Source: Burkholderiaceae bacterium
Lineage (GTDB): Bacteria > Pseudomonadota > Gammaproteobacteria > Burkholderiales > Burkholderiaceae_C
Length of the DNA stretch: 43,865 nucleotides
Assembly: GCA_031277295.1 (NCBI GenBank)
Contig: JAITMV010000074.1
Coordinates: 1-43,865 of the forward strand
Direction: 5' to 3'
Below the pieces are notes generated by a model that did no database searches, was not told the origin of the DNA, and saw only the letters and a list, made by a program, of their open reading frames with translations. Position numbers and translations under genes: made by a program. Of this stretch, positions 2,877-43,865 are shown in pieces. Positions within the stretch are counted from its first letter, which is position 1. Every line of letters starts with the position of its first letter.

Positions 2877-2991
2877 TGACCTTGCCCCCGAAAAACGTAT
2901 CCCATAACCGAGGCCATTATGCGGCTCGCTTCTCCTGGGCAGCAAGCCAAGCCCGTTCAAACTGCATCGGGCTGACGTAGCCCAGCGCGGC
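2877..2991 (-). mobile_element. IS3-family transposase tail with one terminal end (remnant)
   Basis: On the minus strand, 2988-2917 encodes LGYVSPMQFERAWLAAQE followed by KRAA and a stop. This is the recognisable C-terminus of an IS3-family OrfB (DDE) transposase. About 40 bases downstream of the stop, reading from the outer edge at 2877, TGACCTTGCCCCCGAAAAA looks like an IS3-type terminal inverted repeat beginning with TG. Everything 5' of the last 24 or so codons is missing, and the break falls at the start of the hairpin repeat at 2992. This is a dead fragment, not a mobile unit. Confidence 0.8.
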
Positions 2992-3067
2992 AGGCTGGGA
3001 TGGAGTGAAACGTAATCCCAGCTTCAGGCGGTGGATGCTGGGATTACGCTACGCTTCATCCCAGCCT
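2992..3067. repeat. Long imperfect inverted repeat (hairpin)
   Basis: Two arms of 31 bases (2992-3022 and 3037-3067) are inverted copies with about four mismatches, around a 14-base loop. Each arm begins or ends with AGGCTGGGATG...AATCCCAGC. It lies between convergent genes (mmsB and the endonuclease-like gene) and its last bases overlap the stop codon of the latter. It could form a strong stem-loop and terminate or stabilise both transcripts. It abuts the IS3 remnant exactly, so it may have been the break point. Confidence 0.85.
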
Positions 3068-4385
3068 ACCGCGCTGGCTTTTCTGGAGCAGGAACTTCTA
3101 CAGTGACCGCGATGCCGTCATGATCGCTCAAGTTATTGTCTTCTCCTCGCACAAAGGGAGAATCACCTTGCACAGACTTGGGCGTTTTGGCCACGACTTC
3201 ACCGTTCGTGAAAATGTAATCAAGTCTGCGGTCGTGGCCTTTCTTCGAGGTTGGACCGGCATTGCCGGCATCGGTATACCCGTGTACATCGATGTAATCG
3301 CTCAGCGCGCGGCCAGCCTGGTCGTTGTTCTCGCCAGGGTCGATGGAGAGATTGAAATCGCCAGCGATGATCACGGGGCGCCCTCCCGCGCCTTTCTCGG
3401 CGAATTCCCTCAGTTTTTCAATTTGCTCCGCCCTAGCGCCCGGATCCATTTCTTCTTCGTTATCGATGTGCGCGGTAGTGAAGTCGACTTCAGCTCCATC
3501 CGTAGTAGTCACGCGAACTTTGACGGCCATGCGTCCGTCGGAGCCATCGTCGCCTTTTCTATCCAGCTTGCCTTCTTTTTGGCCATCTTCGTTTTTTCCG
3601 TCGCCGATTCGTCGGGATTGGGCTACGTTGCCTTTGCTTCCACCATCGGACTCGCGAACCGCGATAAGGTTGCCGTAACTCTCATTGTAGCTGTAACCCG
3701 CCCTGGGGATAGGGGGGCCGTAAGGGTCGGCGGGGACGCCAGGAGTCGGTTCGGCGTCGGCGTCGCAACGCGTCTTTTCGGATGCCTCTTCATAATACAA
3801 AGTCCAATTGCTGCCATCATCGGCCGCTTCCAGCGCGCTCTCCAGGTCCTCAACATCCTCCTGCCAGACTTCCTGAAGCATTGCCACATCGGCCTTCTGG
3901 TTGGTGATCCTTTCCGCCAGTCCATCCACGTCCTCAGAATCCATGCCATCTCCGCTACAGTTCAGGTTGTCAGCGCCACCGCCGACATTAAGCGTCATCA
4001 CCCGCAGGCTGTTCGTGCCTGGCGGCGGTTTGTCATCAGCGCTGTCCGAGCCAGAGGCCAACTGATTGGCGGCGTACTGCGCCATCGCGCGGGATATGTT
4101 GGCGTTCACCATTTGGGTCTCCATATCCTGGCCTTTCAGGGCGTTAACGGATTTGTCGTTGTTAGCGGACTTGTCGTTGGCCGGTTTGCTGCTGCCGGAT
4201 TTGTCGTTGGCGGGCTGGCTGCTAGCGGACTTGTCCTTGGCGCTGGCCGCCAGGCTTCTTTGCTCCGTGCTCTGACCAGAGGCTGCGTCCGGCTTGTCGG
4301 CGTGGTCAGCGGTTTGGGGCTTCTTCGGGGAAACATCCAAGTGCGCGATCTTGGGCAGGCTTCTGCCAATGCTGCTAATACTCAT
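3066..4385 (-). CDS. Endonuclease/exonuclease/phosphatase-family protein with disordered N-terminus
   Basis: A 439-residue protein. Residues about 1-120 are low-complexity (Ser, Lys, Asp and Asn rich) with imperfect repeats of the type PANDKSGSSK. From about residue 127 the metal-dependent EEP fold is clear: LRVMTLNVGGG, VAMLQEVW, TTAHIDNEEE, IIAGDFNLS, RLDYIFTNG and LSDHDGIAVTV. These supply the expected Asn, Glu, Asp, Asn and terminal Asp-His residues. A long acidic and glycine-rich insert (about residues 235-275) interrupts the domain. No signal peptide or membrane segment is visible. The family includes DNases, CdtB, sphingomyelinases and inositol phosphatases, so the substrate cannot be named. 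A GGAG Shine-Dalgarno lies about 7 bases before ATG. It stands alone in a patch with AT-richer flanks, suggesting transfer. A secreted or effector role is speculation. Confidence 0.85.
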   Translation of the reverse strand: MSISSIGRSLPKIAHLDVSPKKPQTADHADKPDAASGQSTEQRSLAASAKDKSASSQPANDKSGSSKPANDKSANNDKSVNALKGQDMETQMVNANISRAMAQYAANQLASGSDSADDKPPPGTNSLRVMTLNVGGGADNLNCSGDGMDSEDVDGLAERITNQKADVAMLQEVWQEDVEDLESALEAADDGSNWTLYYEEASEKTRCDADAEPTPGVPADPYGPPIPRAGYSYNESYGNLIAVRESDGGSKGNVAQSRRIGDGKNEDGQKEGKLDRKGDDGSDGRMAVKVRVTTTDGAEVDFTTAHIDNEEEMDPGARAEQIEKLREFAEKGAGGRPVIIAGDFNLSIDPGENNDQAGRALSDYIDVHGYTDAGNAGPTSKKGHDRRLDYIFTNGEVVAKTPKSVQGDSPFVRGEDNNLSDHDGIAVTVEVPAPEKPAR

Positions 4386-4763: not shown

Positions 4764-4927
4764 AGAACGTGTTCACGATCCCGGCGCGGGCGTGCGGGCG
4801 CGGGCTTGGGCGGTCTGCGGCGTTGCAATCCTTGCCAATGACACCGGCCATTGGCTGCGGATTGCGCCTTGCAGCCCATCCCAATCCGCATCCCGCACAC
4901 CTCACGCCGAGATCGCAAACACGTTCT
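4764..4927 (-). repeat. MITE-like repeat element, copy 1
   Basis: A 164-base GC-rich element bounded by inverted ends: AGAACGTGTTCACGATC on the left and its near-inverse GATCGCAAACACGTTCT on the right. The interior carries sub-palindromes (GCCAATG...CATTGGC). Position 37082-37255 holds a second copy in the opposite orientation, with the same ends and similar interior. No coding potential is needed to explain it. It lies just downstream of the small coiled-coil gene ending at 4944. Confidence 0.85.
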
Positions 4928-11910: not shown

Positions 11911-12043
11911 GAGCCCGTGAATGAATTCAGCGCGTCCGAGCAGCTCGCCTGCAACGTGTCTGATCTAGGCGCAAAGCGCAGCAATACCTCAAGACGTGCC
12001 GGCGCACGGGAACTTATTGCCTCATGCCCTAAACTTAGTTTCC

Positions 12044-15259: not shown

Positions 15260-15330
15260 AGAGCCTGTGAAAAAAACCGCCTAAAGCCCGCTCATGCCTT
15301 CAAAACACGCCGGGTTTTTTCACAGGCTCT
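15260..15330. repeat. Short palindromic element with AGAGCCTGT ends
   Basis: Two 20-base arms (15260-15279 and 15311-15330) are inverted copies with one mismatch: AGAGCCTGTGAAAAAAACCG and the inverse of AGAGCCTGTGAAAAAACCCG. The loop is 31 bases. The A/T runs mean each strand ends a stem with a T-rich tract, so it could act as a bidirectional terminator between the response regulator and folD. A second element with the same nine-base ends is at 29632-29707. Confidence 0.8.
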
Positions 15331-29405: not shown

Positions 29406-29480
29406 GAGGATGTCCTTTCTCTAAGGCGACGCCTCGCCCAGTCCCCGCAGATCAGCGTGTCTTCGGCTTGGGATCGTCCG

Positions 29481-29527
29481 CGAGGCGCAAAGCTTGAGCA
29501 TACCGGGTGGGTATCGCGAGTATTTGC
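29481..29527. repeat. Dispersed repeat core shared with the uvrC insert
   Basis: The 47 bases starting CGAGGCGCAAAGCTTGAGC and ending TATCGCGAGTATTTGC match 41231-41276 inside uvrC almost base for base, apart from the small loop. It can fold as a short stem (GCATACC / GGTATCGC). It lies in the leader of the SYLF lipoprotein gene (start 29405). Confidence 0.8.
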
Positions 29528-29631
29528 TTTCCAAGCAGGCCGTTTCACGAGCGAGGACACCTTTCGCCGCATGGGGCCGGATGAGGCGCTACCCCGATAC
29601 TACTGCGTTACTTGACATCCTCTCCTGTCCA

Positions 29632-37081: not shown

Positions 37082-37255
37082 AGAACGTGTTCACGATCTC
37101 GGCGTGAGGTGTGTGCGGGTGCGGCATTGGGATGGGCTGCCGGGGCGACAAGCCACAGCCAATAGGCCCGTGTCATTGGCAAGGATTGCTTGCGCCGCAG
37201 CGCTTCCTGAGCACGCGCCCGCTCTAAGCCCGCGCCGGGATCGCAAACACGTTCT
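37082..37255 (+). repeat. MITE-like repeat element, copy 2
   Basis: A 174-base element with ends AGAACGTGTTCACGATC and GATCGCAAACACGTTCT, opposite in orientation to copy 1 at 4764-4927. Shared interior blocks include ATTGGGATGGGCTGC and TGTCATTGGCAAGGATTGC. Its right end supplies two bases of the stop codon of the TRAP binding-protein gene, and its left part lies where a yoeB antitoxin gene would be expected. Confidence 0.85.
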
Positions 37256-39665: not shown

Positions 39666-41786
39666 ATGACCGATCCCGCCCCCGCGCACAGCCCCGAATT
39701 GCTGGCCCAGGTCGCCGCCCTGCCCGCGCTACCGGGCGTGTATCGCTACTTTGACCGCGACGGCCAAGTGCTGTACGTGGGCAAGGCGCGCCATCTGAAA
39801 AAGCGCGTATCGAGCTACTTTCACAAGAACCACGGCGGCACGCGCATCGGCCACATGGTGAGCAAGATCGCGCGGCTGGAGACAACCGTGGTGCGCTCAG
39901 AGGCCGAGGCGCTGATTCTGGAAAACAACCTCATCAAGCAGCTTGCGCCGCGCTACAACATTCTTTTCCGCGACGACAAGAGTTATCCCTACCTCAAGCT
40001 CACCGGCAGCGGCAAGCCGGTGTCCGACCCCGGCGGCGCGCCCAATCCACAAGCCTATGCCCGCATGGCCTATTACCGCGGCGCGACTGATCGGCGGCAC
40101 CGCTACTTCGGCCCCTATCCGGGCGCGTGGGCGGTCAAGGAAACGATCCAGTTGTTGCAAAAGGTGTTTCGCCTGCGCACCTGCGAGGACACGGTGTTTG
40201 CCCACCGCACGCGGCCTTGTCTGCTGTACCAGATCAAACGCTGCTCCGGCCCGTGCGTGCGCCTGATCGACGCCGCTGGCTACGCCGCCGACGTGGCCCA
40301 TGCCGAACAATTCCTGCACGGCGAAACGCAAACCCTGCTGCAAGAGCTGGAGCGTCGCATGATGGCGCACGCCGAGGCGCTGGAGTTCGAGCAGGCCGCC
40401 GAGCTGCGCAACCAGATCGAGGCGCTGGCGCGCGTGCTGCACCAGCAAGCGGTGGAGGTGGGCGGCAGCGCCGACGCGGACATCCTGGCCGTCAAGGTGC
40501 AAGGCGGCCGCGCCTGCGTCAACCTGGCGATGGTGCGCGGCGGGCGGCACCTGGGCGACCGCGCATACTTCCCCAGCCACGTCGAAGACGCGCAAGCGTT
40601 GGTTTTCAACGATGGCGAGGCCGACGTCGAGTTGCCCACCATCGAAGCGCGCGTGCTCGACGCCTTCATCGCCCAGCACTACCTGAATGCGCCCGTGCCA
40701 GCGCAGCTCATCACCACCGAGCCGGTGTCGTCATCCCTGCTGCGCGCGTTGTCGGGCAAGGAAGAAAGGCGCATCGCCGCCACCCACGCGCCGCGTGGCC
40801 AGCGCCGCGTGTGGCTTGACATGGCGCGCCAGAACGCCGCCTTGCAACTGGCCCGCCTGCTGGCAGAAGAAGGCTCGCAACAGGCCCGCACCCGCGCGCT
40901 GGCCGAGGCGCTCGATCTGCCCGTACAGGCGCTGGACGAGTTGCGCATCGAATGCTTCGACATCAGCCACAGCGCTGGCGAGGCGACGCAAGCCAGTTGC
41001 GTCGTGTTCCAGCACCACCGCATGACCAGCGGCGAATACCGGCGCTACAAGATTGAAGGGATCACCCAGGGCGATGACTACGCCGCCATGCGCCAAGTGC
41101 TGGAACGCCGGTATGGAAAAATCGCCGAGGCACTGCGCGAACAAGGCGGCGGCGAGCCATTCACCCGCGCCGCGCCGGAACCTCTGCGCAAATCCGCGCG
41201 AGCGGGCACGCCCGGATTCGGGATGGGATGCGAGGCGCAAAGCTTGAGCGTACCTGAAGGTATCGCGAGCATTTGCAACGACGTAGACCGCCCGAATGCG
41301 GGATGCGCCAGCCGCGACGGATTTGGGCAGAGGCTCCGAATGCCCGATCTGGTGCTGATCGACGGCGGCAAGGGCCAGGTCGGTGTGGCGCGCGAGGTGT
41401 TCGAGCAACTCGGCCTGGACGTGGCGCTGATCGTCGGCGTCGAAAAAGGCGAAGGCCGCAAGGTCGGGCTGGAAGAACTGGTGTTCGCCGACGGGCGTGA
41501 AAAGGTCGCGCTCGGAAAGGACAGCGCCGCGCTGATGCTGATCGCCCAGATTCGCGACGAGGCGCACCGCTTCGCCATCACCGGCATGAGAGCGCAGCGC
41601 GCCCGCGTGCGCGTGGGCGGCAGCCGCCTGGAAGAAATCCCCGGCATCGGCGCCAAGAAACGCGCCGCCCTGCTGCAACGCTTCGGCGGCGTGCGCGGCG
41701 TCGAAGCCGCCAGCGTGGACGATCTGGCCACCGTGCCCGGCATCTCACGCACCCTGGCCGAGGAGATTTACCGCGCCTTACATTGA
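39666..41786 (+). CDS. uvrC: Excinuclease ABC subunit C, with an in-frame repeat insert
   Basis: The nucleotide-excision-repair nuclease that cuts both sides of a lesion. The 706-residue protein has the GIY-YIG domain ([20 protein letters not shown], residues about 23-42), the UVR helical motif ([17 protein letters not shown]), the RNase H-like C-terminal nuclease ([16 protein letters not shown] and [20 protein letters not shown]) and tandem helix-hairpin-helix motifs at the end ([18 protein letters not shown]). ATG at 39666 is the family start. About residues 511-558, inside the nuclease domain, are foreign to the family and encoded by repeat DNA related to elements elsewhere in the window. 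Confidence 0.95.
41196..41337 (+). repeat. Repeat element inserted in frame in uvrC
   Basis: About 140 bases between the conserved codons for [12 protein letters not shown] and [10 protein letters not shown]. The core at 41231-41276 matches 29481-29527. The flanks (GATTCGGGATGGGATGCGAGGCGCAA and TTGCAACGACGTAGACCGCCC, given approximately) resemble the interior of the MITE-like element at 4764-4927 read on the minus strand. The frame remains open. Confidence 0.8.
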
Positions 41787-42696: not shown

Positions 42697-42835
42697 GGGG
42701 CGATGGCGAAAAATGTCCTGTCATCATCTCCCGGCGATCCAAGTTCCGTCCTTGAAGCAGGATAACGCCGGAGCGTCCTTGCTGTTCTGGGCTGACACAC
42801 GGCAAGCCACTAAACGCTCAACCTAAAATGCCGCC

Positions 42836-43396
42836 ATGTCCGCGCTCCCCTTGCTCAAGCCGGCGACTTATGAAGACCTGTGCGCCCTGCCGCCCCATAG
42901 GGTAGGCGAGATTGTGCGGGGCGTTCTGTACAGCCATCCCAGGCCGGCTTCAAAACATGCGCGTTCAAGCTCGATGCTCGGCATCAAATTGGGCCCCCGC
43001 TTCGACGAAGGCGATGGCGGCCCAGGCGGTTGGTGGATCATTTTCGAGCCTGAGCTGCATCTGGATGACGACGTGCTGGTGCCTGATTTGGCGGGCTGGC
43101 GGCGCGAGCGGATGCCGGTGTTCCCGGACGTGGCCTGGTTCGATCTGGCGCCGGACTGGATTTGCGAGGTTCTTTCGCCCAGCACCGCGCGGCTCGACCG
43201 GACGCAGAAGATGCCGATCTACGCCGCCAACGGGGTGCGGCATTTGTGGCTGCTCGATCCGGTGCTGCGCACCCTCGAAGCCTATGAAAACCAGCAAGGC
43301 CGCTGGACACTGATCGCCACCCACGCTGACCAGGAGCAAGTGCGCGTGGCGCCGTTCGACGCGGCGGCGCTTGATCTCGGCGGGTTGTGGACATGA
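42836..43396 (+). CDS. Uma2-family (DUF820) putative endonuclease, copy 1
   Basis: A 186-residue PD-(D/E)XK-like protein. The family features are the N-terminal TYEDLCALP...GEIVRGVLY, the central DDDVLVPDLAGWRRERMP with the acidic residues, and WICEVLSPSTARLDRTQKMP then GVRHLWLLDP with Glu and Lys of the presumed active site. Uma2 proteins are common in Cyanobacteria and some Proteobacteria, and their biological role is unknown. A near-identical second copy follows 102 bases downstream, so this is a recent tandem duplication. Confidence 0.88.
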   Translation: MSALPLLKPATYEDLCALPPHRVGEIVRGVLYSHPRPASKHARSSSMLGIKLGPRFDEGDGGPGGWWIIFEPELHLDDDVLVPDLAGWRRERMPVFPDVAWFDLAPDWICEVLSPSTARLDRTQKMPIYAANGVRHLWLLDPVLRTLEAYENQQGRWTLIATHADQEQVRVAPFDAAALDLGGLWT

Positions 43397-43498
43397 GGCG
43401 TTGAGCATGAAAGTGTCTTTTGGCGCTGCCGCATCGCCACCGCACAACCCACGCCAGACACCCACGCCAGACGCTCGAGCCAAGAATAAAATGTCGGC

Positions 43499-43865
43499 AT
43501 GTCTGCGCTTCCCCTGCTCAAGCCGGCGACTTATGAAGACTTGTGCGCCCTGCCGCCCAATCGGGTGGGCGAGATCGTGCGGGGCGTTCTGTACAGTCAT
43601 CCCAGGCCGGCTTCAAGACACGCGCGTTCGAGTTCCGTGCTGGGAGGAAAGCTGTACCCCCGCTTCGACGAAGGCGATGGCGGCCCAGGCGGTTGGTGGA
43701 TTCTGGACGAGCCGGAGTTGCATCTTGGTGACGACGTGCTGGTGCCCGACTTGGGTGGCTGGCGGCGCGAGCGGATGCCGGTGTTCCCGGACGTGGCCTG
43801 GTTCGATCTGGCGCCGGACTGGATTTGCGAGGTTCTTTCGCCCAGCACCGCGCGGCTCGACCGGA
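43499..43865 (+). CDS. Uma2-family (DUF820) putative endonuclease, copy 2 (3' partial)
   Basis: The frame opens at ATG 43499 with MSALPLLKPATYEDLCALPP and runs open to the end of the window (about 122 codons). It is nearly identical to the gene at 42836. Differences cluster around GGKLYPRFDEGD and WWILDEPELHLGDD. The C-terminal third lies outside the window. The upstream 25 bases (AAAATGTCGGCATG) resemble those before copy 1 (AAAATGCCGCCATG), so the duplicated unit includes the leader. Confidence 0.85.
   Translation, partial: MSALPLLKPATYEDLCALPPNRVGEIVRGVLYSHPRPASRHARSSSVLGGKLYPRFDEGDGGPGGWWILDEPELHLGDDVLVPDLGGWRRERMPVFPDVAWFDLAPDWICEVLSPSTARLDR

Follow-up and report, generated by a model that had tools for sequence, protein, structure and literature searches.

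A 161-bp MITE-like repeat read in frame within uvrC of a Burkholderiaceae bacterium

Rickettsia offers the best-documented case of selfish DNA that has spread in frame through housekeeping proteins. The palindromic elements of this genus (RPE) are described in a 2024 review as repeats of ~150 bp that occur in frame in unrelated genes, encode a conserved peptide and are found outside genes as well, and in-frame spread in other prokaryotes is called conceivable there (PMC10969869). The enterobacterial RU elements are small mobile repeats with open frames that are fused to genes; the discussion of that report places the fusions in C-terminal regions and knows of none that interrupts a conserved domain of a large family (PMC2759123). 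The repeat considered here lies in a window (the whole stretch of DNA that was analysed, 43,865 nucleotides) from a Burkholderiaceae bacterium, for which the original prediction had placed repeat DNA in frame within UvrC at 41196-41337. The in-frame repeat is confirmed, but these bounds are too narrow and miss the left repeat; the element covers 41177-41337. The features of the locus are:

39666..41786, plus strand: uvrC (excinuclease ABC subunit C), 706 aa, with the frame open through the insert; assigned by profile matches
41177..41337, plus strand: putative MITE copy of 161 bp read in frame 1, supported by genomic copies, inverted repeats and the empty site in relatives
41177..41196, plus strand: left terminal inverted repeat, GGAACCTCTGCGCAAATCCG
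41318..41337, minus strand: right terminal inverted repeat, GGAGCCTCTGCCCAAATCCG on the minus strand
41230..41276, plus strand: 47-base core common to several element families, GCGAGGCGCAAAGC...GCGAGCATTTGC

The uvrC gene is a single open frame from the ATG at 39666 to the stop at 41786, and its product scores above the curated cut-offs of TIGR00194 and NF001824 in a profile search. The Pfam RNase H domain is lengthened by the extra residues, extending over residues 426-638 against 149 model positions. The linker, taken as the residues from DDY to DGG, was compared in 30 loci, i.e. in the genome under study (G000) and 29 fetched relatives. It measures 95 residues in G000, 92 in one relative (G001) and 33-53 in the other 28 of the 29, such that the segment is not shared protein sequence among relatives. 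Compared with the best-matching linkers of relatives (41 residues, e.g. TRAARMP), the gain in G000 is 54 residues, one codon below the 55 expected. The insert is placed between the RRY helix and the strand DLVLIDGG, which holds a catalytic aspartate, and the segments that flank it are two residues apart or touching in the three solved UvrC structures that were aligned. In G001, a different in-frame insert is found in the same linker (locus L051, about 3040-3180), with the peptide ...SPSPVYGRGAGERA...PLPQAGEEE.... The DNA of this insert has 81 matches within G001, counting the insert, and the majority span 25-60 bases; it is a dispersed repeat, unrelated to the 161-bp element, that entered the same loop. 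That congeneric species have each received a different, unrelated repeat in this one UvrC linker suggests that some loops tolerate foreign peptide.

The element in uvrC reads GGAACCTCTGCGCAAATCCG...CGGATTTGGGCAGAGGCTCC at its ends, and its terminal inverted repeats are imperfect and about 20 bp long. The original prediction had also called for a genome search of the segment. With 40 of 152 first-look candidates scored, a query of 170 bases (41176-41345) found at least 43 matches in the 2.9-Mb genome, one of them its own position, at E-values from 1.9e-84 to 2.2e-4, and the segment is clearly one of many copies. The next best match is 89% identical over 161 bp, and the closest full-length copies elsewhere share 86-89% identity with the query. 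At the DNA level, the element is matched in 21 of the 60 genomes searched; these include the own genome and belong mostly to its genus. A profile of the element peptide as read in UvrC found 83 matches in the own genome and was matched in 19 of 29 genomes of the genus, again including the own, at E 1e-4. Among the best 80 of 89 loci from a scan of named genomes are the Burkholderiaceae MAGs JAITWT (Xx448_bin5), SSC6 and Fux382_bin24 (matching G001 in its LigA insert), the Alcaligenaceae isolate CAII-56 and a few others. Related elements were also seen in MAGs labelled Methylobacillus, Azonexus and Azoarcus (L198, L199, L175, L213 and L158), some of which share a sample with the Burkholderiaceae bin Xx448, a pattern that could reflect transfer between lineages or a binning error. 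The genomes analysed are mostly MAGs. A misassembly would, on the other hand, hardly rejoin the two halves of uvrC in order and in frame.

The copies have the anatomy of a transposable element. Inverted repeats 40-230 bp apart with up to four mismatches an end were searched for in the fetched loci, which were chosen by similarity to the element, such that the copies are related. This gave 97 distinct pairs, 57 of them exactly 161 bp long. In CAII-56 (G062), 19 of the 27 pairs within 300 bp have exactly this length, which is kept across genera although the interiors diverge. Exact 4-bp flanking duplications are present at 34 of the 96 pairs with both flanks, against a mean of 5.5 when the right flanks were shuffled 10,000 times; none of the shuffles reached 34. 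The flanks are mostly YTAR-like on both sides. A 4-bp YTAR target duplication is typical of the IS5 group, and the composition of the flanks fits this preference. The element is short, multicopy and, at 161 bp, too small for a transposase gene, and we interpret the segment in uvrC as a copy of a non-autonomous MITE of about 161 bp. The uvrC copy is itself flanked by CGCC and GAAT, i.e. a target duplication matching at 0/4 positions, and the copy in the DNA ligase gene of G001 likewise scores 0/4. These two copies are therefore old, or arrived otherwise, and canonical transposition is invisible at both sites.

The window holds further elements of this kind:

29425..29593, plus strand: related 169-bp element with the same core, outside uvrC, with the ends GGCGACGCCTCGCCCAGTCC / GGTAGCGCCTCATCCGG
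4765..4926, no strand assigned: MITE of another family, 162 bp, with GAACGTGTTCACGATC ends
37083..37254, no strand assigned: 172-bp element, the other window copy of the GAACGTGTTCACGATC family
15262..15328, no strand assigned: short element whose ends are those of the AGCCTGTGAA family, a family that is read in frame in an EptA-like gene
11912..11990, plus strand: left part of a AGCCTGTGAA-family element with the shared core; the right part is missing and the right bound approximate

The 47-base core that had been noted as common to uvrC and 29481-29527 is real and is a stretch inside the 169-bp element. The likeness proposed between the flanks of the uvrC segment and 4764-4927 is weaker, and the element there belongs to a different family with GAACGTGTTCACGATC ends and TNA-type flanks. 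Both window copies of this family have such flanks, and the family has no fixed frame-neutral length. The AGCCTGTGAA family is represented in the EptA-like gene by an insert with the ends AGCCTGTGAA...TTCACAGGCT. Its 157 bp and a 5-bp CTCAG duplication make 162 bp or 54 codons, which is the gain observed, and the reading frame of its core agrees with that of the uvrC element (EAQSAAIPGGIASICNE). Two other repeats were seen in the window. The 300-base stretches 42824-43123 and 43487-43786 are 87% identical, the former lying within the open frame 42836-43396 and the latter reaching the right end of the window, and likely represent a tandem gene duplication. A long inverted repeat at 2982-3077 (44-nt arms, 86% complementary, 8-nt spacer) is not obviously related to the uvrC element.

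A parent was sought among transposase genes. DDE_Tnp_1 was searched for in seven genomes, the own and six others, and the ends of 32 fetched loci out of 41 hits were scanned. None of these 32 of 41 loci holds an autonomous element with GGAACCTCTGAACAAATC (GGAACC) ends. In SSC6 (L355, 1481-2325), a DDE_Tnp_1 element of ~845 bp carries the ends of a sister MITE family, GAACGTGTTTACGATC (GAAC), which resemble those of the window family at 4765-4926 and 37083-37254; judging by these ends, it is likely to be the parent of the sister family. A pattern search for GGAACC ends in G062 gave pairs spanning 56-235 bp and none of 300-3000 bp. For the RAYT-like Y1_Tnp, one weak match was found in the own genome (L100, G000:C177:4085-4408), which at 21.4 bits is below the cut-off of 23 bits and has an open frame of 217 residues. 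A REP/RAYT origin was set aside because the copies of the element show target duplications.

That a dispersed element enters housekeeping genes without breaking the frame, as the original prediction suggested, is supported by another four clean hosts whose relatives lack the insert. We scanned in six frames 176 distinct copies in the fetched loci, a number that includes partial copies and possibly some counted twice under different bounds. A copy is spanned by 118 frames, of which 14 pass a filter on codon-position GC; the rest were judged by sequence. Clean internal insertions are seen in UvrC, in the NAD-dependent DNA ligase LigA of G001, in a phosphoethanolamine transferase resembling EptA (C125, own genome), in a conserved uncharacterised protein (C258) and in the alanine racemase of JAITWT, with net gains measured between fixed anchors. 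In LigA, the insert adds 57 residues between the OB fold and the zinc finger and is missing from all five LigA sequences aligned, including that of the own genome. The EptA-like protein gains 54 residues (insert missing in 4/4 aligned relatives) and the C258 protein 55 (missing in 3/3); the latter has no match in Pfam or NCBIfam, and for this reason an earlier GNAT label was dropped. The alanine racemase gains 65 residues, i.e. 55 plus a longer loop, from a copy with a perfect TTAG duplication, and the insert is absent in 20 of 20 aligned sequences (found in the 22 loci given; 19 of the 20 were measured for length). Codon-position GC is coding-like on both sides in UvrC, LigA and the EptA-like protein (0.19-0.23) and weaker in C258 (0.10). 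The score of the alanine racemase is below the threshold of 0.08, and this case rests on the alignment of relatives and on family matches.

Other candidates fall short of an internal insertion. In PdxA, a solute-binding protein and a LysM protein, the element is in frame 1 near the start codon, and these are probable N-terminal cases. QueG, thiolase, MetH and RNase G were rejected as internal cases on inspection by eye, the element lying upstream of the likely start. UDG was not accepted as a clean case because the copy sits in a linker that is variable among relatives, and an outer-membrane efflux protein (L297) was not counted as internal because of a contig edge. The other eight frames passing the filter are L216, L222 and L038 (the same gene in two genomes), L090, L173, L040, L146 and L141. 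A Pfam search of seven of these (L038 was omitted as the twin of L222) and of L297 found none in which domains above cut-off flank the element to the left and to the right; L090, L173, L040, L146 and L297 have such a domain downstream of it. For L216, L173, L040 and L141, in which the minus orientation is read, no gene is seen on both sides. By eye, the copies in L082, L097, L146 and L297 are in frame directly before a signal-peptide-like gene start, in L146 in frame 0.

The structure of the element suggests why the frame is kept. Together with its duplication, it adds 161+4=165 bp, which is 55 codons. On entry from YTAR, frame 0 runs into the TAR stop and frame 2 into a TGA that the inverted repeat supplies within CTCTGA, which leaves frame 1 stop-free: [xYT][ARG][GAA][CCT][CTG].... 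With the flanks included, frame 1 is open in 39 of 56 copies of 161 bp on the plus strand and in 51 of 56 on the minus strand, frame 0 in 9/56 and 7/56, and frame 2 in 0/56 and 2/56, respectively. When the interiors were shuffled, frame 1 was open in 36% (plus) and 49% (minus). Real interiors are accordingly more open in frame 1 than their own composition gives, in copies that are related rather than independent. The clean and probable hosts all use the plus strand in frame 1, although the minus strand is open more often. L146 is a possible exception to this rule: here a D-Ala-D-Ala carboxypeptidase (S13) with a signal-like start is preceded by an element whose open frame is frame 0; its frame 0 is free of the TAR stop because the flanks are TTTA rather than YTAR.

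We consider it very probable that the segment in uvrC is a copy of the ~161-bp MITE that transposed into the gene and is read as a 54-residue loop, and that the frame is kept for a structural reason. The element would have been moved by a transposase of the IS5 type. At the point of entry, the YTAR target would put a TAR stop in one frame and the CTCTGA of the inverted repeat a TGA in a second, and the third would be open on both strands in most of the copies examined. Because of the 165 bp and the two blocked frames, a typical copy surviving in a gene would be read in one frame and leave it in phase, and insertions that fall in a linker or a surface loop, such as the one in UvrC, would pass selection.

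A separate question is whether the arithmetic itself has any meaning. We are inclined to think that the length of 161 bp derives from the mechanics of transposition or of the hairpin and that 161+4=165 is a coincidence, which is compatible with the reading of the uvrC segment as a translated MITE copy. A one-in-three chance calls for no explanation, the GAACGTGTTCACGATC family lacks a fixed frame-neutral length, and the pairs of 156-174 bp other than 161 keep the frame in 5 of 27 cases against 9 expected by chance. What speaks against coincidence is that the AGCCTGTGAA family with its CTCAG duplication also arrives at a multiple of three with the core in the same frame in the EptA-like gene, that the length is constant across genera with divergent interiors, and that the interiors, albeit of related copies, exceed their shuffled counterparts in openness. 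A rather doubtful possibility is that the transposon family evolved frame transparency through the combination of target preference, stop in the repeat, length plus duplication and open interior. If so, frame transparency would let an element persist in genes in either orientation and seed protein loops, and at least two families with different ends would have it together with the same core reading frame.

It is improbable, in our estimate, that uvrC is inactivated or only partly active and that the insertion is a drifting lesion whose open frame is a by-product of length and composition. The open frame alone is no proof of function, given that frame 1 is open in most copies regardless. The uvrC copy has, however, accumulated 17 differences over 161 sites from its nearest genomic relative without a stop or a frame-changing indel, and no second uvrC is among the matches listed for the own genome. 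The ligase of G001 is interrupted in the same manner, with no second ligase gene among the 6 of 7 matches listed. LigA is normally essential. Substitutions in the uvrC copy show no clear signal by codon position, neither against a 19-copy consensus (10/8/8) nor against two single copies (4/4/9 and 8/8/8). Because the frame is preserved and no other uvrC is among these matches, we infer that UvrC is made with the loop and is working.

Removal or skipping of the insert, by ribosome bypass of a hairpin or by RNA or protein splicing, such that mature UvrC lacks it, is very unlikely: the transcript of the insert is predicted to fold as one long, strong hairpin within the uvrC message (-101 kcal/mol, z -9.2), recalling ribosomal bypass hairpins, but an open, frame-neutral insert is not needed if it is skipped, and there is no sign of an intein or a group I/II intron, as Pfam finds no intein domain in UvrC and a tRNA is the one Rfam family that reaches its gathering score in the window.

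In conclusion, the 161-bp element behaves like an RPE and is built like a MITE, and selfish DNA has here apparently been turned into extra loops of working proteins. No published description of the family was found in the literature searched, as judged by titles and the beginnings of abstracts. The in-frame cases seen here in Burkholderiaceae are internal, and they come with inverted repeats, duplicated targets and empty sites. As all three can be seen, the route into genes becomes testable with respect to the mode of entry, the frame required and the protein sites that tolerate it. Among known systems, REP/REPIN sequences moved by RAYT are likewise multicopy palindromic repeats but differ from the present element, with its 161 bp and target duplications. 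RU elements are fused at C-terminal regions, whereas the clean cases described here lie inside housekeeping enzymes, either between their domains or within one. MITEs derived from the IS5 family share the terminal inverted repeats, the absence of an own gene and the YTAR-type 4-bp duplications; the difference is the lack of an autonomous GGAACCTCTGAACAAATC-ended element in the 32 of 41 DDE_Tnp_1 loci looked at. The element also resembles the RPE, as already proposed in the original prediction and upheld here, in that a palindromic repeat of ~150 bp is read in frame inside unrelated genes; it is a likeness of layout and behaviour as these are described for RPE. The present element differs in its occurrence in Burkholderiaceae and relatives and in that the terminal inverted repeats, the preferred length of 161 bp and the 4-bp duplications, i.e. 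the anatomy of a MITE, are visible here.
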